Assembly: GCF_001927245.1 (NCBI RefSeq)
Contig: NZ_MJUX01000001.1
Location: 186,001-250,000 of the forward strand
Direction: 5' to 3'
Source of the DNA: Acuticoccus yangtzensis
Lineage (GTDB): Bacteria; Pseudomonadota; Alphaproteobacteria; Rhizobiales; Amorphaceae
DNA: 64,000 bases
Under the pieces are notes generated by a model. The model searched no databases, was not told the DNA's origin, and saw only the letters and a program-made list of their open reading frames with translations. Of this stretch, positions 1-50,546 are shown piece by piece (position 1 is the first letter of the stretch; each line of letters opens with the position of its first letter). The position numbers and the translations under genes are program-made.

Positions 1-918
1 CAGGACTCCGGCATCCTCGCCAAGTGGGCCGACAAATACGGCATCACCATCGAAGCGGTGCAGATCAACGACTACGTGGAGTCGATCAACCAATATACCG
101 CGGGAATGTACGACGGCTGCTCCATGACCAACATGGACGCCCTCTCGATCCCGGCCGGCGGCGGCGTCGACACCACCGCCCTCATCGTCGGCGACTATTC
201 CAACGGCAACGACGGCATCGTGCTGAAGGGCGCCACCGACCTCGCCGACATCAAGGGGCAGTCGGTCAACCTCGTCGAACTCTCCGTCTCCCACTATCTC
301 CTCGCCCGCGCGCTGGAGACGGTGGACCTGTCGGAGCGCGACATCACCGTCGTCAACACCTCCGACGCCGACCTCGTCGCCGCCTACACCACGCCGGACG
401 TGACCGCCGTCGTCACCTGGAACCCGCTGCTGTCGGAAATCGTGTCGATGCCGGACTCCACGGAAGTCTTCAACTCGGCCGAGATCCCCGGCGAAATCAT
501 CGACATGATGGTGGTGAACACCGAGACGCTGGCCGACAATCCCGCCTTCGGCAAGGCCCTCACCGGCGCCTGGTACGAGACCATGGCGCTGATGGAGGCG
601 GGCGACGAAGAGGCGCTGACGGCGATGGCCACCGCCTCCGGCACCGACATTGCCGGATACCGCGCGCAGCTCGAGTCCACGGCGATGTTCTATACGCCGC
701 AGGAAGCGGTTGATTTCATCTCCGGCGAGGGGTTGCCCGAGATCATGAGCTTCGTCGCCACCTTCCTGTTCGACCACGGCATCCTGGGGACGGGTGCGCC
801 GAGCGCCGAGTTCGTCGGCATCCAATATCCGGGCGGCACGGTCACCGGCGACGAGGCCAACGTCACCTTGCGCTTCGATGACAGCTATATGCAGATGGCG
901 GCGGACGGCGAACTCTGA
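1..918 (+). CDS. ABC transporter substrate-binding protein, 5'-truncated (probable guanidine/urea-type importer)
   Basis: The reading frame is open from base 1, so the signal peptide and N-terminal lobe lie outside the window; about 305 residues remain. The sequence resembles the NMT1/TauA-like periplasmic binding proteins found beside urea carboxylase and guanidine-degrading genes. It ends with a TGA 21 bases before the permease start, and the next four genes are tightly packed, which suggests one operon. The ligand is inferred from the downstream guanidine hydrolase-type enzyme: guanidine is my first choice, urea or another small amidine second. A ligand-sensing riboswitch, if present, would lie upstream of the window. 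Confidence 0.8.
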   Translation, partial: QDSGILAKWADKYGITIEAVQINDYVESINQYTAGMYDGCSMTNMDALSIPAGGGVDTTALIVGDYSNGNDGIVLKGATDLADIKGQSVNLVELSVSHYLLARALETVDLSERDITVVNTSDADLVAAYTTPDVTAVVTWNPLLSEIVSMPDSTEVFNSAEIPGEIIDMMVVNTETLADNPAFGKALTGAWYETMALMEAGDEEALTAMATASGTDIAGYRAQLESTAMFYTPQEAVDFISGEGLPEIMSFVATFLFDHGILGTGAPSAEFVGIQYPGGTVTGDEANVTLRFDDSYMQMAADGEL

Positions 919-939
919 CCGCGGAGGGGCCGCGCGCCG

Positions 940-1761
940 ATGCGCCTCATCAACCAGAGACCGGGCCGCGTCGGCGCCATTCTCCTCGGCGCGATCCCGT
1001 TCGCGCTGGCGCTCGCGGCCTATGTCGTCGGCAGCGCGGTCCGGCGGGCGGAGAACCCGCAGGACAAGCTCCTCCCCTCGCTGGAGGCGATGGGCACCGC
1101 CTTCGCCCGCATGGCCTTCGAGGCCGACCGGCGCAGCGGGGACTATCTCCTGTGGGTCGACACGGCCGCCAGCCTGGAGCGGCTCGCCCACGGCATGCTG
1201 ATCGCGGCCGGGCTCGCCATTGTGGTGGGCGCGCTCATCGGCATCCTGCCGGTGGGGCGCGCGCTGCTGTCGCCGTTCGTGTCCGCCTTCTCGCTCATCC
1301 CGCCGATCACGGTGCTGCCGATCCTCTTCATCGTGCTCGGGCTCGGCGAGGCGGCCAAGGTCGGGCTCATCGTGGTGGGCACGGCGCCGCTGATGATCCG
1401 CGCCGTCGCCCAGTCGGTGCTGGACCTGCCGCGCGAAGAAATCATCCGCGCCCAGACGCTGGGCGCGTCGACGATGCAGCTCACCGCGCGGGTGGTGTTG
1501 CCGCAGATGTGGCCGCACCTCGTCCGCGCGATCCGCATGGGGCTGGTGCCGGCGTGGATCTTCCTCGTCTCGGCCGAGGCGATCGCCGCGACGGAGGGGC
1601 TCGGCTACCGCATCTTCCTCGTGCGACGCTACCTCGCGATGGACGTCATTATCCCTTACGTCCTGTGGATCACCTTGATCGCCTACGTGCTGGACAGGGC
1701 GCTCGCACTCGCCTCGCGCCGCCTGTTCCCGTGGGCGCACCTGTCGGGCGACGCACTGTGA
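940..1761 (+). CDS. ABC transporter permease (SsuC/TauC-like)
   Basis: A 273-residue integral membrane protein of the binding-protein-dependent permease type, with one hydrophobic segment near residues 8-28 and a block of further segments from about residue 85 on. The cytoplasmic EAA loop that contacts the ATPase is visible around residues 165-195 (QTLGAS followed by VVLPQMWP). It would form the inner-membrane channel for the binding protein encoded just upstream. Its stop codon overlaps the GTG start of the ATPase gene, so translation is probably coupled. Nitrate/sulfonate/taurine-type permeases are the wider family; substrate assignment rests on gene context only. Confidence 0.85.
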   Translation: MRLINQRPGRVGAILLGAIPFALALAAYVVGSAVRRAENPQDKLLPSLEAMGTAFARMAFEADRRSGDYLLWVDTAASLERLAHGMLIAAGLAIVVGALIGILPVGRALLSPFVSAFSLIPPITVLPILFIVLGLGEAAKVGLIVVGTAPLMIRAVAQSVLDLPREEIIRAQTLGASTMQLTARVVLPQMWPHLVRAIRMGLVPAWIFLVSAEAIAATEGLGYRIFLVRRYLAMDVIIPYVLWITLIAYVLDRALALASRRLFPWAHLSGDAL

Positions 1762-2564
1762 CCGGCACTGCGGCCGGTGCCGCGCCCGCATTCGTGGAGG
1801 TGAAGCGGCTCGCCGTGACCTATGGCGACGCGCCGATCCTCGAGGGTGTCTCGGTCGGTGTCGCCGAAGGCGCGCTGGTGACGATCGTCGGCGCGTCCGG
1901 CTGCGGCAAGTCCACCTTCCTGCGCATCCTTTTGGGGCAGGAGCGGCCGACCGGGGGCACCGTCGCCATCGACGGCGCGCCGATCGCCCCGGAGCCGGAC
2001 CCCAACCGTGGCATCGTCTTCCAGAAGTCCTCGGTGTTCCCGCACCTCACCGTGCGCGGCAACCTCATGCTGCCGTTCGAGATCGCAGGCGGCGGCCCCC
2101 TCGCCCGCCTGTTCGGCGCCCGCCGCCGCGCCGCGCGCCAGAAGGCGGACGCGATGATGGAGCGCATCGGCCTCGCCCACGCCGCCGATCGCTACCCGGC
2201 GCAGTTGTCGGGCGGCATGCAGCAGCGCCTCGCCCTCGGCCAGGCGCTGTTGCCGCGCCCGAAGATCCTGCTGCTCGACGAACCCTTCGGCGCGCTCGAC
2301 CCCGGCACCCGGCGCGAGATGCAGGCGCTTCTGGTGGAGCTGTGGCGGGAAACGGGCATGACTGTCTTCATGGTCACCCACGACATCCAGGAGGCGTTCG
2401 ACCTCGGAACGCGCATTCTGGTGTTCGACAAGATCCGCCACGACCCGCAGCACCCGCACGCTTACGGCGCGACGATCACCTACGACATTCCCCTGAAAGG
2501 CCCCGTCGCGGAGGCGCTGCGCCCCGCAACACCGGCAAACCTGAACGTGAAGGACGCATTCTGA
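1758..2564 (+). CDS. ABC transporter ATP-binding protein
   Basis: A 268-residue ABC ATPase. Walker A (GASGCGKST, about residues 45-53), signature LSGGMQQR, Walker B (ILLLDEP) and the switch-region THD are all intact. I start it at GTG 1758 because this overlaps the permease stop as GTGA and the family N-terminus (EVKRLAVTYGDAPIL) follows at once. The C-terminal extension containing HPHAYGATITYDIPL resembles that of ATPases from urea-carboxylase or guanidine gene neighbourhoods. The stop overlaps the start of the next gene by one base. It powers import by the preceding two proteins. Confidence 0.85.
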   Translation: MTGTAAGAAPAFVEVKRLAVTYGDAPILEGVSVGVAEGALVTIVGASGCGKSTFLRILLGQERPTGGTVAIDGAPIAPEPDPNRGIVFQKSSVFPHLTVRGNLMLPFEIAGGGPLARLFGARRRAARQKADAMMERIGLAHAADRYPAQLSGGMQQRLALGQALLPRPKILLLDEPFGALDPGTRREMQALLVELWRETGMTVFMVTHDIQEAFDLGTRILVFDKIRHDPQHPHAYGATITYDIPLKGPVAEALRPATPANLNVKDAF

Positions 2565-3847
2565 TGGCCCACCGCTCCTTTGACCCCTTCACCGGCGATC
2601 CCGCGCACGCCGCCCCCTTGTGCGCCTCCCCCATGCGCGCCGACCCCATGCGCGCCGCGCACCATGCCGGCCGCCGCCAACGCGCCCTCCCCGCCCGACG
2701 TCATCACCCGGACTTCAACGCCAAGGAAACCCGCGGTTGGAAGGCGCTGGAGAAGGAGGACGCGCTCCCCGGCTCCGCCTGGGCTGCCGAGCAGAAGTGG
2801 GCGCTGGAGATGGGGCTTCCCGGCGCACCGTCGCTGACCGACCGCACCATCCCCACCTTCGCGCGGGGCGAGCTGCCGCATTTCGCCGGCATCAACACCT
2901 TCCTGAAGGCGCCATATGTCGAGAACATCAAGGACGTCGCCAAGTACGACGCGGCGGTGCTGGGGGTGCCGTTCGATTCCGGCACCACCTACCGGCCCGG
3001 CACGCGCTTCGGCCCGCAGGGAATCCGCCGCATCTCCGCCCTCTACACCACCTACAACTACGAGCTCGGCGTGGACCTGCGCGAGCAGATGACGCTGTGC
3101 GACGCGGGCGACGTCTTCACCATCCCCGGCAACCTCGAAAAGTCGTTCGACCAGATCAGCCGCGGCGTGGGCCACGTCTTCGCGTCGGGCGCGCTGCCGA
3201 TCATCCTCGGCGGTGACCATTCGATCGGCTTCCCGTGCGTGCGCGGCATTGCCGAGAACACGTCCAAGCGCATCGGCATCATCCACTTCGACCGGCACAT
3301 CGACATCCAGGAAAAGGACCTCGACGAGAGGATGCACACGACGCCCTGGTACTGGGCGACGAACCTTCCCAACGTGCCGGCGGTGAACCTGGTGCAGCTC
3401 GGCATCGGCGGTTGGCAGGTGCCGCGCCCCGGCGCCGCCGAGGCCTTCCGGCGCCAGACCAACGTTCTGACCATCGAGGACATCGAGCACTACGGGCTGG
3501 AGAAGACGGCCGAGATCGCCCTGGAACTCGCCTGGAAGGACGCCGACGCGGTCTACATCTCCTTCGACGTCGACAGCCTGGACTGCGGCTTCGTTCCCGG
3601 CACGGGATGGCCGGAGCCGGGCGGCTTCCTGCCGCGCGAGGCGTTGAAGATCCTGGGCCTCGTCTGCGCGCCGGGCATCTGCGGCCTCGAGGTGGTCGAG
3701 GTGTCGCCGCCCTACGACACGTCGGACATCACGGCGCTGATGGGGGTGCGCGTGGCGGTGGAGGCGCTGGGGTCGATGTGCGCTCACGGAACACTCGGCA
3801 AGCACAAGGCGATCATCGACAAGCCGATCGACTACGCGGCCGGCTGA
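2564..3847 (+). CDS. gdmH: Guanidine hydrolase-type ureohydrolase (agmatinase/arginase fold)
   Basis: A 427-residue member of the arginase/agmatinase superfamily. All six binuclear-metal ligands are present: His219 in GGDHS, Asp243/His245/Asp247 in DRHID, and Asp335/Asp337 in SFDVDS. The block GTGWPEPGG (residues 346-354), the stretch LDERMHTTPW after the second metal motif, and the roughly 120-residue N-terminal extension before the catalytic fold distinguish it from ordinary agmatinases. I recall them as hallmarks of the Ni-dependent guanidine hydrolase (GdmH) of cyanobacteria, which splits guanidine to urea and ammonia. Overlap with the ABC ATPase gene supports a transported small substrate. 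Alternatives are guanidinobutyrase or guanidinopropionase. The first 50 residues are His/Pro/Ala-rich, so the true start could be further in. Confidence 0.75.
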   Translation: MAHRSFDPFTGDPAHAAPLCASPMRADPMRAAHHAGRRQRALPARRHHPDFNAKETRGWKALEKEDALPGSAWAAEQKWALEMGLPGAPSLTDRTIPTFARGELPHFAGINTFLKAPYVENIKDVAKYDAAVLGVPFDSGTTYRPGTRFGPQGIRRISALYTTYNYELGVDLREQMTLCDAGDVFTIPGNLEKSFDQISRGVGHVFASGALPIILGGDHSIGFPCVRGIAENTSKRIGIIHFDRHIDIQEKDLDERMHTTPWYWATNLPNVPAVNLVQLGIGGWQVPRPGAAEAFRRQTNVLTIEDIEHYGLEKTAEIALELAWKDADAVYISFDVDSLDCGFVPGTGWPEPGGFLPREALKILGLVCAPGICGLEVVEVSPPYDTSDITALMGVRVAVEALGSMCAHGTLGKHKAIIDKPIDYAAG

Positions 3848-3861
3848 GCGGAAGACCCACC

Positions 3862-4362
3862 ATGCACCGCGATGACGAGACGTCCTTCAACCCCTACGTG
3901 GCGCGCCCCTACGGCGCCCACAGGGCCCACCATCACCCGCACGGCCACGCCCATCCGCACGGCCACAACCAGGGCACGGCGCAGTGGCAGACGCCGCATG
4001 TGGAGGGCGGGCCGGATGCGCCGCAGCACCACCACCACGAACCCGACCTCGACCTCGTCGAGAAGGCGTTCGTGGAGGGCTTCCAGGCGGCGAGCGACCC
4101 GACGAGCTTCCTGCGCCTCGCCGGCATCCCTTTCAGCGGCCGCGCGGCGGACGGCACGTCCTTGAAGCTCCTGCGCGTCGCGGTCGACCTCGTCGCCGAT
4201 GTGGCCTCGCTCACCCCGCACATCGGCGGTGAGAGCTTCCGCCACGATCCGCTACCCGCCGCGATGGTGTCGAAGCGCGAGACGCTGCGCTTCGTCTACT
4301 TCGACGGGATGGGGCCGGTGAGCTTATCCTTTGAAGATGCGCGCAATTTGATCGCCGAATAG
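3862..4362 (+). CDS. Small His-rich protein, possible nickel-handling partner of the ureohydrolase
   Basis: A 166-residue protein starting 14 bases after the ureohydrolase stop. The first 60 residues hold about 15 histidines in runs such as HHHPHGHAHPHGH and HHHH, a composition typical of nickel or zinc storage and chaperone proteins. The remaining 100 residues are a non-repetitive domain (from DLDLVEKAFVEGF to the end) that I do not recognise. There is no signal peptide or membrane segment, so it should be cytoplasmic. In cyanobacteria the guanidine hydrolase gene sits next to HypA/HypB-like nickel chaperones; none is visible here, so this protein may substitute. That role is inference from composition and position. 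Confidence 0.7.
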   Translation: MHRDDETSFNPYVARPYGAHRAHHHPHGHAHPHGHNQGTAQWQTPHVEGGPDAPQHHHHEPDLDLVEKAFVEGFQAASDPTSFLRLAGIPFSGRAADGTSLKLLRVAVDLVADVASLTPHIGGESFRHDPLPAAMVSKRETLRFVYFDGMGPVSLSFEDARNLIAE

Positions 4363-4510
4363 GTGTTTTCTCTGGACCGGATGGAACCCGTGCCGCTAGA
4401 CACGCCCTGTCAACGCGGCGCGGATTCGGCTCTGATCCACCGCGCCGCCCCTCCCGTGCGGCGAACCCCGATGGTCGAGGGGCATGCCGTTGAAGTACGG
4501 AGCCTCCAGA

Positions 4511-5848
4511 GTGGCACTTTATACCTTCGAAAGCCTGTTCGTCCTCTTCAAGGGTGACGACGGGATCGACGCCCAGCGCGCACGCACAGGCGACTACGTC
4601 GTCGTCGACGCGGACGACGACGGCTTCGGCTACCGCTATGTCGGCGGCGATTCCGATGTCGAGATGAACATCGGGAACGCCAACGCCATCCTGATCGAAG
4701 GCCAATCCTTCGCTCCGGACGAGCTCGAGGCGATTGTCGAACAGATCCACTGGGGCAACGGCAACGTCACCTACTTCATCGCGTTCAACAGCCCCACGGG
4801 GGCCTTCGACGGGGATTATCACATCATCCTCGGCGGCGACCCTCTGCCCCCCATCACCAACGCGGCGGACTTCAACGCCTTCAACGAGGCGATCACCAGC
4901 GTCGAGCGGATCTCCTCCGGGCCCTTCGCGCCCGGCGAGACGATCGGCTATGAAGAGGTGCAAAGCCTCACCTCCGTCACCGACGGTGAGCCGCCCGTGA
5001 GCGAGCCGGAGGTGAACCTCATCACCGGCAGCGAAGAGGCCGAGGAGATCCCCGGCACCGACGGCAACGACAGCATCTCGGCGCTCGGCGGCGACGACAC
5101 CATCGACGCCGGAGCGGGCAACGATTCGGTCTATGGCGGCTCGGGATCGGACTCCATCTTCGGCGGCGACGGTGACGACGAGCTCGCCGGACGCCGCGCC
5201 AACGACACGCTGATCGGCGGTGACGGCGACGACCGCCTGTTCGGCGCGGAGGGCGACGACCTCGTCATCGGCAACGCCGGCAACGACACCTTGGGCGGTC
5301 AGCTCGGCAACGACGCGCTTGAGGGCGACGCGGGGCGCGACGTTCTGTTCGGCGGCGGCGGCGACGATACCGCCGACGGCGGCGCCGACAACGACCGGCT
5401 GATCGGCCGCCGCGGCGACGATGTTCTTCTGGGCGGCGACGGCGACGACGGCATCTTCGGCGGCGGCGGCGACGACCTCGTCGAGGGCGGAACCGGCGAC
5501 GACACGCTCGTCGGCCAGGAGGGCGACGACGCCCTGTTCGGCGACAGCGGCGACGACGTTCTGGCCGGCGGCGCGGGGGACGACATCCTCGCCGGCGGCA
5601 CCGGGGTGGACCAGCTCACCGGCGACGAGGGAGCCGACCTCTTCGTGCTGACGGAGGGGAGCGGCCACGCGATCATCGCCGACTTCGACGGCAGCAGCGA
5701 CACGTTCGGCCTCTCGGACGGCCTCACCTTCGCCGACCTTACCCTGACCGGGAACGAGATCCTGGTGGACGGCGACCTGTTGGCGGTCCTCAACGGGACC
5801 ACCGTCGCCGGACTGCAGGCGAGTGACTTCGAGGTGTTGGCGGGTTAA
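4511..5848 (+). CDS. RTX-repeat calcium-binding protein with unassigned N-terminal domain
   Basis: About 445 residues from GTG 4511, chosen because GGAG sits 8 bases upstream; an in-frame ATG at 4484 would add nine residues. Residues 1-165 form a domain I do not recognise (VALYTFESLFVLFKGDDG at its start). From about residue 173 to 383 there are tandem glycine/aspartate nonapeptides of the GGxGxDxxx type, the calcium-binding beta-roll of RTX proteins. The last 60 residues (DLFVLTEGSGHAIIADFDG onward) match the usual RTX C-terminal cap that carries the type I secretion signal. There is no Sec signal peptide. Secretion through a type I system is expected; none is in the window. Several repeat units are degenerate (for example GRRANDTLIG). 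Confidence 0.8.
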   Translation: MALYTFESLFVLFKGDDGIDAQRARTGDYVVVDADDDGFGYRYVGGDSDVEMNIGNANAILIEGQSFAPDELEAIVEQIHWGNGNVTYFIAFNSPTGAFDGDYHIILGGDPLPPITNAADFNAFNEAITSVERISSGPFAPGETIGYEEVQSLTSVTDGEPPVSEPEVNLITGSEEAEEIPGTDGNDSISALGGDDTIDAGAGNDSVYGGSGSDSIFGGDGDDELAGRRANDTLIGGDGDDRLFGAEGDDLVIGNAGNDTLGGQLGNDALEGDAGRDVLFGGGGDDTADGGADNDRLIGRRGDDVLLGGDGDDGIFGGGGDDLVEGGTGDDTLVGQEGDDALFGDSGDDVLAGGAGDDILAGGTGVDQLTGDEGADLFVLTEGSGHAIIADFDGSSDTFGLSDGLTFADLTLTGNEILVDGDLLAVLNGTTVAGLQASDFEVLAG

Positions 5849-5910: not shown

Positions 5911-7248
5911 GTGAACGACCGCCCGACGCCCCCGGCCACGACCGCGGCACCTGCTGATACGCCCCCGCCGGACGATACCGCGGGAGTTGGCGCCGGAGTT
6001 GGCGCGGTGCAGGCGGAGCGGAGCGCAACGCCCCTTGCGGCGCCGGCGATACGAGGCGGCCGCGCGAAAGCAGGCGCCGAGCGGACGTTGACCAACGCCG
6101 AGGCGCGCCACGTCTTCCTGGCGCGTCACGGCCTTGCCGGACCGCCGACCGGCCCCGCGGAACGCGAGACGGTGGCCGGCACCATCGCGGCGCTGGGCTT
6201 CGTTCAGGTGGACTCCATCGCCACCGTGGCGCGCGCTCATCACCTCATCCTCTATGCCCGCCACCACCGCTACCGCCCGCCGGTGCTGTCGCGCCTCTTC
6301 GCCGAGCGCCGCCTGTTCGAGGGCTGGACCCACGATGCCAGCCTCATCCCCATGGAGTTCTGGCCCTATTGGCGCCGCAAGTTCCGCCACGCCGAGGAGG
6401 TGACGCACGCCCGCTGGCAGGCCCGCTTCGGCCACGAGCTGGACGAGATCTGCGACCGCGTCCTCGCCCACATCGCCGCCAACGGGCCGACCCTTGCGCG
6501 CGATTTCGAATCCGAGGGCGGGTCCGCCGGGTGGTGGAACTGGCAGCCCGCCAAGGTGGCGCTGGAATTCCTGTGGCGCTCCGGCCGCATCGCCGTTTGC
6601 CACCGCGACGGGTTCCAGAAGGTCTATGACCTCACCGAGAACATCGTCCCCGCCACGCTCCTCGCCGCGGCGCCGGACGATGCGGCCATCGTGGACTTCG
6701 CCTGCGAGGCCGCGCTCGGCCGGCTCGGGTTCGCCTCGCCCAAGGAGATCGCTGACTTTCTGGAGCTGATCACCGCCGCCGAGGCCGCCGACTGGTGCAC
6801 ACACCACCGCGAACGGCTCATCGGCCTTGCCGTCACCCAGGCGGACGGCAGCACCCGCCCCGCCTTCGCGCTGGCGGACGCGCCGCCGGTGGACACCCTC
6901 GCCCCCACCCAGCGCCTCAGGATCCTCGCCCCCTTCGACCCGCTGGTGCGCGACCGGACCCGCGCCGAACGCCTGTTCGGCTTCCACTACCGCATCGAGA
7001 TTTACGTCCCGCAGCCCAAGCGCCGCTACGGCTACTACGTCTTCCCCATCCTGGAGGGCGACCGCTTCGTCGGGCGGATCGACATGGCGCGCTCCGGCGG
7101 CACGCTCGCCGTCGCCGCCCTGTGGCCCGAGGCGGGCGTGCGGTTCGGCGCCGCTCGCCGCCGCGCGCTGGACGCCGAGTTGACGCGCATGGCCCGCTTC
7201 GCCGGGGTGGACGGCGTCACCTATGCCGAGGGTTGGCTGCGCGCCTGA
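5911..7248 (+). CDS. ycaQ: YcaQ/AlkX-like winged-helix DNA glycosylase
   Basis: A 445-residue protein of the HTH_42 family that includes E. coli YcaQ/AlkX and Streptomyces AlkZ, glycosylases that unhook interstrand crosslinks or excise bulky alkyl adducts. The catalytic-type Q-hydrophobic-D motif is visible as QVDSIATVARAHH about 105 residues in, the AlkX-type variant. The family homology begins near LTNAEARHVF; the first 59 residues are Pro/Ala-rich with no homology I can see, and a TTG at 6088 just at the domain boundary could be the real start. It stands alone between an RTX gene and a glutathione transferase gene. It acts in cytoplasmic DNA repair. Confidence 0.75.
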   Translation: MNDRPTPPATTAAPADTPPPDDTAGVGAGVGAVQAERSATPLAAPAIRGGRAKAGAERTLTNAEARHVFLARHGLAGPPTGPAERETVAGTIAALGFVQVDSIATVARAHHLILYARHHRYRPPVLSRLFAERRLFEGWTHDASLIPMEFWPYWRRKFRHAEEVTHARWQARFGHELDEICDRVLAHIAANGPTLARDFESEGGSAGWWNWQPAKVALEFLWRSGRIAVCHRDGFQKVYDLTENIVPATLLAAAPDDAAIVDFACEAALGRLGFASPKEIADFLELITAAEAADWCTHHRERLIGLAVTQADGSTRPAFALADAPPVDTLAPTQRLRILAPFDPLVRDRTRAERLFGFHYRIEIYVPQPKRRYGYYVFPILEGDRFVGRIDMARSGGTLAVAALWPEAGVRFGAARRRALDAELTRMARFAGVDGVTYAEGWLRA

Positions 7249-7362
7249 GCCTCCCCGCGAAAGGGGCTGGCCAAAATGTGGCACAGCACGCATTGTCTGC
7301 GGACGTGTCCGACCCCAGATCCCGCAAGCGGCAGCCCGACAGCGGGGCCACAAGGAGATCCC

Positions 7363-48269: not shown

Positions 48270-48893
48270 TTAAGCGTCGAGCGCGGCGCGGCTCTCGATC
48301 ACGCGGTCGATGATCCCGAACTCCTTGGCCATGTCCGGGGTCATGTAGTGATCGCGCTCCAGGGTGGACTCGATCTTGTCCAGCTCCTGGCCGGTGTGCT
48401 TGCGGTAGATCTCGTTCAGACGGCGCTTCAGGGCGAGGATCTCGTTGGCCTGAAGCTGGATGTCCGCCGCCGTGCCGCGGAAACCGCCGGAGGGTTGATG
48501 CACCATGATGCGCCCGTTGGGGAGCGCAAAACGCATATCCTTCTCTCCCGCCGCGAGCAGCAGCGCGCCCATGGACGCGCACTGACCGAGGCACAGGGTG
48601 GAGATCGGCGGGCGGATGAACTGCATCGTGTCGTAGATGGCGAGACCCGAGGTCACGATGCCACCCGGCGAGTTGATGTAGAGGGAGATCTCCTTGTTGG
48701 GATTATCCGCCTCGAGATACAGAAGCTGCGCACACACCAAGGTCGCCACCGTGTCCTCGATGGGACCGGCGATGAAAATGATGCGCTCCGACAGGAGGCG
48801 CGAGAAGATGTCGTAAGCCCGCTCGCCCCGGTTGGTCTGCTCGACAACCATCGGGACGAGGGAGGACATATAGAAGTCTACTGGATCTTTCAT
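48270..48893 (-). CDS. clpP: ClpP, proteolytic subunit
   Basis: A 207-residue serine peptidase with catalytic Ser107 (GQCASMGA), His132 (MVHQPSGG) and Asp181 (ERDHYM). It forms the double-heptamer chamber that works with ClpX. It is nine bases downstream of the tig stop, so the two are probably co-transcribed. Length is standard. Confidence 0.97.
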
Positions 48894-48902
48894 CCGCCCG
48901 GC

Positions 48903-50345
48903 CTAGTGATCGTGGTGGTGATGATCGTGGTCATGATCATGATGGTGGTGATGATCGTGGCCATGGTCATGATCGTGGTCATGCGCGTGATCGTGCTCGT
49001 CCTCGTCCATGCCCTTCAGAAGCTCGTCCTTGGACACCGGAAGAGTGTTCACGGTCGCAAGCTCGAGAATGTAATCGACGACCTTGTCTTCGAAGATCGG
49101 CGCGCGAAGGGAGGCGATCGCCTGCGGGTTCTGCTGGTAATATTGCAGAACCTGCCGCTCCTGGCCCGGGAACTGCTGCATCCGCTCCTGAAGCGCGCGC
49201 TGCACTTCCTCGTCGGTCACCTGAACCTCGGCCTTCTGGCCGACCTCCGACAGCAGGAGGCCGAGACGCACGCGGCGTTCGGCGATCGCCTGATAGTCGG
49301 CGCGGGTCTTCGCCTCGGAGCCGTCCGCATCGTCCGCCAGAGACGCGTCGAAGGACTCGCCCTTCTGCTTCATCTCGGCATCGACCTGGCGCCAGATCGA
49401 GTCGAACTCGGTCTCCACCAGCTTCTGCGGCAGCTCGAACTTGAACTTCTCGTCCAGCGCGTCGAGCAGGGCGCGCTTCACCTTGGCCCGGCTCGCCGTG
49501 TCGTAGGAGCGCTGCATCTCGCCCTTCAGGGCCTCGCGCAGCTTCTCCAGGCTCTCGAGGCCCAGCTTCTCGGCGAACGCATCGTCGAGCACGGTGTCCT
49601 TCGGCGCGGCGATCTCGTGGATCGTCACGTCGAACTCGGCCGGCTTACCGGCGAGGTGGGTCGCGCCGTAGTCCTCGGGGAAGGTCACGCGAACGAGAGC
49701 GAGACCCGGCACGAAGCCGAGAAGCTGCTCCTCGAAGCCCGGAATGAACCGGCCTTGACCGATGACGATGTCGATCCCTTCGGCCGAACCACCCTCGAAG
49801 GGCTCGCCGTCGATCTTGCCGACGAAGTCGATCTTCAGACGGTCACCGTCCTGAGCCGGCCGATCGACGGGCTCATAATCCTTGTAGTTCGCGGCGAGCT
49901 TCGTCAGCTCTTCCTGAAGCTCCTCCTCGGGAACCTCATAGACCGGCTTCTCGACCGTGATCGCATCGAGCCCGGCGACCTCGATCTCCGGCAGGACCTC
50001 GTACTTCACGGCGAAGGACAGGTCGCTCTTGCCGTCCATCACGTCGGCCATCGAGCCTTCGTCGACATCGACGTCGGGCTGAAGGGCCGGCTTCTCGTCG
50101 CGGCCCTCGACCGCGCCGCGCACGGACTCGGTCATCACGTCGTTGATGACCTCGGCCATCGCCGAACGGCCGTACATCTTCTTCAGGTGGGCCATGGGCA
50201 CCTTGCCCGGCCGGAATCCCTTCAGGCGGACCTTCTGACGCAGGTCGTCGAGATAGGTGTTCAGACGCGCGTCGAGGGTCGCTGCGGGAACCGTCACCTT
50301 AAGTTCCCGCGCGAGACCCTCAGCACGGGTTTCCGTCACTTCCAT
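48903..50345 (-). CDS. tig: Trigger factor with His-rich C-terminal tail
   Basis: A 480-residue ribosome-associated chaperone. The N-terminal ribosome-binding signature is LKGFRPGKVPMAHLKKMYG, the FKBP-type peptidyl-prolyl isomerase domain is about 155-250 (DGDRLKIDFVGKIDGEPFEGGSA in parts), and the C-terminal helical chaperone domain follows. The unusual part is the last 35 residues, which alternate His and Asp with 19 histidines in total, like the metal-binding tail of SlyD. The codons CAY/GAY are a low-complexity run that could expand or contract. Start ATG 50345 (MEVTETRAEG). Confidence 0.95.
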   Translation of the reverse strand: MEVTETRAEGLARELKVTVPAATLDARLNTYLDDLRQKVRLKGFRPGKVPMAHLKKMYGRSAMAEVINDVMTESVRGAVEGRDEKPALQPDVDVDEGSMADVMDGKSDLSFAVKYEVLPEIEVAGLDAITVEKPVYEVPEEELQEELTKLAANYKDYEPVDRPAQDGDRLKIDFVGKIDGEPFEGGSAEGIDIVIGQGRFIPGFEEQLLGFVPGLALVRVTFPEDYGATHLAGKPAEFDVTIHEIAAPKDTVLDDAFAEKLGLESLEKLREALKGEMQRSYDTASRAKVKRALLDALDEKFKFELPQKLVETEFDSIWRQVDAEMKQKGESFDASLADDADGSEAKTRADYQAIAERRVRLGLLLSEVGQKAEVQVTDEEVQRALQERMQQFPGQERQVLQYYQQNPQAIASLRAPIFEDKVVDYILELATVNTLPVSKDELLKGMDEDEHDHAHDHDHDHGHDHHHHHDHDHDHHHHDH

Positions 50346-50546
50346 CGGGTTCACTTTCCGCAGCACCAAAATCTGTTGTGGGGGAGGACGCTCCATGTCG
50401 CGCCGCAAGCCACCGGTGTCAATGGCGTGACACGGGGGAATGTCGGCGTTGCGCCCGACTGAGGTGCAAAATGATGAGAAAACCGCCAGCGCCCCAAACG
50501 AGGCAGCGACCAAAGCAGGCCCGCAAGGCGGTCACGACGCGCCCCC

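Follow-up and report, generated by a model that had tools for sequence, protein, structure and literature searches.

In a 64,000-nucleotide stretch of the Acuticoccus yangtzensis genome (hereafter the window; G000:C12:186001-250000 of a 5.04-Mb assembly in 29 contigs), the gene encoding a GdmH-type guanidine hydrolase is followed by one encoding a small protein of an unnamed family. Our survey of other genomes shows that this small protein is a regular genomic partner of alphaproteobacterial GdmH, almost invariant in the genomes searched. It is probably a helper that loads nickel into GdmH, i.e., its maturation factor. We favor, with some reserve, the view that it is a dedicated GdmH accessory protein, which would do a HypA/HypB-like job by means of a docking domain and a nickel-gathering tail; that the bound metal is nickel, and that the protein docks and delivers it, is what we infer within this view.

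The small gene was found immediately downstream of gdmH in 36 of 37 distinct GdmH genomes of the class. Co-occurrence with GdmH in other genomes had been set beforehand as a test of an earlier reading of the window from its letters (the sequence-only reading), and it held. GdmH was called at E ≤ 1e-120 in the order-level, E ≤ 1e-100 in the class-level, and E ≤ 1e-80 in the phylum-level searches, so more distant ureohydrolases are uncounted. Among 199 genomes at the order level, GdmH was present in 23 and the small gene in 22, all 22 copies adjoining gdmH (hypergeometric P 2e-28, a value that ignores shared ancestry). At the phylum level (398 genomes), GdmH and the small protein were found in the identical seven genomes, all of the window's class, and at the class level (385 genomes) GdmH was found in 11, two of them counted before, with the small gene next downstream in each of the nine new ones. 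The lone exception, genome G145, encodes a GdmH relative (55% identical) without the small gene and with a HupE gene next to it.

The genome_contigs set consists of the 80 best gdmH loci out of 401 candidates and is biased to close relatives. It overlaps the 37 GdmH genomes, with identical proteins in both, and the two sets are non-independent because several genomes occur in each. In this set, the small gene is adjacent to gdmH in 78 loci, including one with an apparent frame shift (L055); in L065, the contig ends after the His-rich start of the small gene, and in L037 the small gene lies ~7 kb from gdmH on the opposite strand. Among named relatives, those nearest to the enzyme come from Aurantimonas, Jiella, and Fulvimarina (86-92% identity), and relatives of the locus include those of Mesorhizobium, Sinorhizobium, and Ancylobacter. 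Since homologues are conserved across many genera, we take the small gene to be real, and a chance open reading frame (ORF) was ruled out by the relatives that stand beside gdmH in these genera. One locus, L046, is on a contig titled Terriglobia bacterium that carries gdmH (85% identical to the one in the window) and the small gene; the contig is likely mis-binned or transferred.

When the search was reversed, using a profile of both subfamilies of the small protein (described below), matches were obtained in 10 of 318 class-level genomes, nine of which are known GdmH genomes. The tenth, G681, has a 5'-truncated fragment of the small protein's domain (L180, about 7020-7351; G681:C7). Neither GdmH nor a riboswitch was detected in the 12 kb around this fragment, and G681 is not among the class-level GdmH matches; the fragment looks like a relic left after loss of the operon, and it is the only copy of the small gene seen without GdmH. 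In a plasmid collection, a GdmH-like gene was found in 11 records and the small protein in six (tblastn E ≤ 1e-5), all six among the 11, and the profile search added the small protein in CP049031, a Rhodobacterales plasmid record; the four records then left without it are actinobacterial. Both annotated plasmid records that we saw call it "hypothetical protein". Two Rubrobacter plasmids (L155 and L156) encode GdmH homologues with the GTGWPEPGG block but carry no HypA/HypB or small gene within 4.5 kb, and L155 has urease genes ~3 kb downstream.

The partner enzyme itself, an arginase-family protein of 427 residues encoded at 2564..3847 (+), matches PF00491 with 251.9 bits and is, by its sequence, a GdmH orthologue and predicted guanidine hydrolase. 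Its top matches in the Protein Data Bank (PDB) are 9fek (E 3.4e-157) and 7esr/7oi1 (E 3.7e-156), which are the guanidinases of Nitrospira inopinata and Synechocystis, respectively (PMC11410670, cited in part). These guanidinases scored 524-527 bits versus at most 167 for all others, and the next match, a guanidinobutyrase, stands ~356 bits below them. All six metal ligands noted by the sequence-only reading are present, as H219, D243, H245, D247, D335, and D337, and are conserved in 109 of 109 aligned rows, and the GTGWPEPGG and LDERMHTTPW blocks were both found where it had placed them, in the ureohydrolase. Alignment to 7esr and 9fek gives T142 and W349 as the guanidine signature; the specificity-determining Thr/Trp pair is T97/W305 in Synechocystis and T105/W313 in Nitrospira (PMC11410670, cited in part). 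An agmatinase or guanidinobutyrase identity is unlikely given this signature, the PDB scores, and the riboswitch described below. W349 is kept in 108 of 109 aligned rows, and the sole exception is the G145 enzyme with Ser. This relative (L136; G145:C17), which has its own His-containing N-terminus and the downstream HupE mentioned above, may act on a substrate different from guanidine.

The small protein (166 residues, 3862..4362, +) has exactly 15 His among its first 60 residues, as against the 15 or so noted earlier, and 17 in total. Its His-rich tail (residues 1-58, 3862..4035, +) carries a GHN motif and a QWQ...H motif and is probably disordered, as it was modeled with low confidence (AlphaFold block pLDDT, the predicted local distance difference test, of 50-62 over residues 1-60). 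It is followed by a conserved α+β domain of 107 residues (residues 60-166, 4039..4359, +), modeled with a mean pLDDT of 92.6 and a predicted template modeling score of 0.77. The earlier description of this C-terminal domain as unrecognized agrees with every search that we made, none of which returned a significant match. In Pfam and NCBIfam, nothing matched the protein of this genome at E ≤ 1, and 49 members of the family gave only weak matches (best E 0.0058, to DmeF, in 4 of 49); none of the 49 matched a HypA or HypB family at E ≤ 0.1, and no DNA-binding family was among the matches. Weak matches of single members (ZrgA, DUF1236, DmeF, PRK10019, and two more) were taken for compositional noise. 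Sequence searches of the PDB returned weak matches (ThyX chains, best E 0.039; THR5, E 0.83) or none, and two Foldseek runs against the PDB, covering both models, reached best E values of 0.11 and 0.074, short of the threshold of E ≤ 0.001. This last result falls short of proving that the modeled domain is a new fold, because Foldseek can miss distant matches.

Within the family, 99 members were aligned, omitting the frame-shifted copy L055 as well as L037 and L065. GHN is present in 95-97 of them, QWQ in 90-91, and H46 in 96, and a second subfamily without QWQ comprises two Rhodobacterales records and other lineages. The N-terminal tail has a median of 17 His, with at least 8 His in 99 of 107 unique members; L141, L161, and L165 have 5-6 His. 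In the C-terminal domain, 23 diverse members share invariant Phe, Asp, Leu, Pro, and Tyr positions. This domain has diverged more rapidly than GdmH (mean p-distance 0.43 versus 0.16 over 74 loci), and the two diverge in step (r=0.78), a correlation that common descent alone could also give.

The sequence-only reading had placed a His-rich protein where HypA/HypB nickel chaperones would be expected. For HypA, this was supported genome-wide: among the 28 GdmH genomes tested, 27 of which carry the small gene, 22 lack HypA (the present genome and 21 of the 27 others), the nine class-level genomes being outside this set; and the 80 gdmH loci gave no HypA match. HypB was sought in the 80 loci only, so for HypB the claim stands for these loci. 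There, HypB queries scored 31-44 bits against a single ORF on the reverse strand in each of L048, L079, and L093, ~4 kb from gdmH, which are perhaps UreG or another GTPase, and 18-23 bits against 11 further ORFs, 10 of which are the small genes; the scores of these 10 we put down to a poly-His effect. On these results from the 80 loci, HypA/HypB hidden near gdmH was rejected. In the three of six HypA-positive genomes that were inspected, HypA and HypB lie side by side and away from gdmH, with HypF-like or rubredoxin-like ORFs as neighbors (read from translations), in what looks like a hydrogenase cluster.

Other genes around gdmH also point to nickel. HupE/UreJ, which by the usual annotation we take to be a nickel permease family, is encoded close to gdmH (within ~2 kb) in 46 of 80 loci, lying downstream in 37 and upstream in 9 (three of the proteins were Pfam-confirmed), and HupE was found in 21 of the 28 genomes tested. 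HupE has been called a nickel uptake transporter (PMC11399263, cited in part). Urease alpha gave a strong match in 26 of the 28 genomes and only a weak one in G145; in the present genome its gene lies elsewhere, fitting the need of the pathway for urease.

Upstream of gdmH, the window opens with an ABC importer, encoded on the same strand (+) by a substrate-binding protein gene (1..918, its 5' end 141 bases before the window; TIGR03427, 508.1 bits versus a cut-off of 333.9), a permease gene (940..1761; PF00528, 59.7 bits), and an ATPase gene (1758..2564; PF00005, 118 bits). The ATPase stop and the ureohydrolase ATG share one base at 2564, and the overlap of importer and ureohydrolase reported from the letters was thus seen again. 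Further upstream, a guanidine-I riboswitch (RF00442, 86.2 bits versus a cut-off of 63) lies at G000:C12:185594-185696 (+), 305-407 bases before window base 1 and 163 nt from the importer start codon. With this riboswitch, T142/W349, and the guanidinase matches in the PDB, the earlier call of a guanidine hydrolase operon is strengthened, and positions 1-4362 are, as read from sequence, a guanidine import and hydrolysis operon. TIGR03427 is described in NCBIfam as a "putative urea transporter" component. Because a guanidine-I riboswitch lies upstream and GdmH alongside, the context suggests guanidine rather than urea as the real substrate of the binding protein. In 16 gdmH loci picked from the 80 and scanned, RF00442 was above cut-off in 14, the misses being L049 and L051. 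The riboswitch is immediately 5' of gdmH in L076, L081, and L084, with the small gene 3' of gdmH and no importer in between, and from this arrangement we conclude that gdmH and the small gene form a unit. Immediately 3' of the operon, an RTX calcium-binding repeat protein is encoded at 4484-5848 (+), with PF00353 in 10 stretches.

We propose the following mechanism. Guanidine would bind the guanidine-I riboswitch and turn the operon on, the ABC importer would take up guanidine, and GdmH would convert it to urea and ammonia, the urea being used by the urease encoded elsewhere in the genome. The C-terminal domain of the small protein would dock on GdmH itself or an intermediate of its assembly. 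The His-rich tail would gather nickel, often supplied by the HupE/UreJ permease of the same cluster, and pass it to, or concentrate it near, the di-metal site of GdmH. In Alphaproteobacteria, the small protein would thereby take the role that the HypA/HypB-type proteins GhaA/GhaB have for cyanobacterial GdmH.

Several observations weigh against this proposal. Three class-level members, whose small genes start a few bases from the gdmH stop, have very short tails: 14 residues with 3 His in L162, 12 residues with 4 His in L163, and 12 residues with 1 His in L167 (this tail-loss count omits L062, which has masked bases, and L028, with an uncertain start). In the C-terminal domain, each His or Cys column is conserved in at most 51 of 107 members. 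On both counts, nickel binding is not a universal function of the family. HupE was not found in 34 of the 80 gdmH loci, nor in the present genome, where another nickel entry route therefore probably exists. In genome G039, GdmH and the small gene occur without any urease alpha match. On plasmids, four actinobacterial GdmH-like loci have neither the small gene nor HypA/HypB within 4.5 kb, and in one of these loci the signature Trp is missing. Comammox Nitrospira, which lie outside the present genome searches, are described as being without known nickel chaperones (PMC11410670, cited in part), and outside the class GdmH seems to manage without the small protein. Finally, in one E. coli study co-expression of MetAB left the activity of MetCaCb unraised, although a knockout of metAB failed to grow on metformin (PMC11271267, cited in part).

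The common feature of the family is thus the C-terminal domain. The His-rich part is the variable one and, with the tail almost gone in three lineages, does not count as invariant; the earlier emphasis on it has to be corrected accordingly. Tails of UreE and HypB are known as amplifiers, and the invariant domain positions combined with the variable tail lead us to regard the domain as essential and the tail as an amplifier. What speaks most strongly against a purely nickel role is the near-loss of the tail in three lineages; against a purely structural one, it is the retention of His tails in nearly all other members, together with the HupE neighborhood. In a structural role, the small protein would be a subunit or stabilizer of the GdmH hexamer, with the C-terminal domain capping or assembling it and the His tail secondary. 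The confidently modeled and conserved part of the protein is indeed this domain, which has no conserved metal ligands, the tail is nearly dispensed with in the three lineages, and the pairing with the enzyme in the class is near-obligate. Tails with at least 8 His and the HupE genes in more than half of the clusters nevertheless indicate a metal, and the Nitrospira guanidinase, said to resemble the Synechocystis enzyme, is a homohexamer without a small protein (PMC11410670, cited in part); we consider the structural role unlikely.

Less probable still, and in our judgment quite unlikely, is nickel storage or detoxification, in which the small protein would be a co-induced buffer with no direct contact to GdmH. 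The His-rich tail with its low model confidence and the HupE genes alongside in many loci would fit such a buffer, but the gene sits with gdmH and not with urease or HupE, though most of the genomes tested have these (26 with a strong urease alpha match and 21 with HupE, of 28). Hpn is the type of a His-rich nickel storage protein. By comparison, His-richness is not conserved throughout the present family, in which conservation lies outside the His tail and L162, L163, and L167 are almost without His; their 1-4 His argue against a pure nickel-storage protein. A role in metal selection, excluding Mn/Zn or delivering a second metal rather than loading nickel itself, draws on the heterologous Nitrospira guanidinase, which when made without a helper contained one Ni and one Mn per subunit with partial Ni occupancy (PMC11410670, cited in part); nothing in our data points to other metals, and the permease family next to gdmH presumably handles nickel, making this role improbable. 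Very improbable, in our view, is a function unrelated to maturation, such as assisting the importer or regulating the operon: the operon is shared with the importer, but L076, L081, and L084 keep the small gene after gdmH without an importer behind the riboswitch, and no DNA-binding family was matched. Returning to nickel loading, its most far-reaching form is that an undescribed family with an unseen fold is a dedicated nickel-insertion factor, in which one NTPase-free docking-plus-tail protein replaces the GTP-driven HypA/HypB pair; we hold this tentatively, at somewhat short of an even chance.

Two observations elsewhere in the genome are recorded here. A trigger factor gene (48903-50513, −; Trigger_N, FKBP_C, and Trigger_C) encodes a very His-rich C-terminal tail of ~30 residues and adjoins an ORF at 48270-48893 that we read as ClpP-like. 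A guanidine-I-like RNA below threshold (39.8 bits versus a cut-off of 63) lies at G000:C12:477943-478040 (L114:1444-1541, −), ~145 nt 5' of a gene for an EamA-type transporter, and is possibly a ykkC-type variant riboswitch.

UreE, HypB, SlyD, and CooJ are His-tailed nickel chaperones. The small protein is like them in combining a folded domain with a variable His-rich tail beside a nickel enzyme, and unlike them in that no significant family or fold similarity was found. The system in the window resembles that of Synechocystis PCC 6803, whose GdmH (Sll1077) belongs to the same enzyme family, as shown by the 7esr/7oi1 match, and whose operon likewise has a guanidine-I riboswitch, an ABC importer, and accessory gene(s) (PMC12186494, cited in part). 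The cyanobacterial HypA/HypB-type activators are named GhaAB (PMC11271267, cited in part); in contrast, HypA is missing here from the genome and the 80 loci, and one protein of an unnamed family is found instead. The comammox N. inopinata guanidinase (9fek) is also of the same family and has a guanidine-I riboswitch, but its surroundings differ, with an APC permease and no nickel chaperone, and its nickel loading has been called unclear (PMC11410670, cited in part). MefH/DmgH are likewise nickel ureohydrolases, some of them from Hyphomicrobiales, and are clustered with accessory genes and HupE, but they are heteromeric and use HypA/HypB; the cited part of PMC11399263 mentions no small His-rich partner. 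According to the same part of that paper, activation of MefH/DmgH required co-expression of HypA/HypB, and GdmH is said to be nickel-chaperone-activated. In the literature searched (mostly titles and abstracts, with Funck 2022 and Sinn 2021 outside the search), no publication was tied to the small protein.

A one-protein helper bears on how guanidine hydrolases that lack HypA/HypB obtain their nickel. If our proposal is true, Alphaproteobacteria, including Mesorhizobium, Sinorhizobium, and Ancylobacter, would have a dedicated one-protein answer to the nickel requirement of GdmH. Such an NTPase-free small helper would offer a simple model of how nickel is inserted, and co-expressing it with guanidine hydrolases and related enzymes would be useful.

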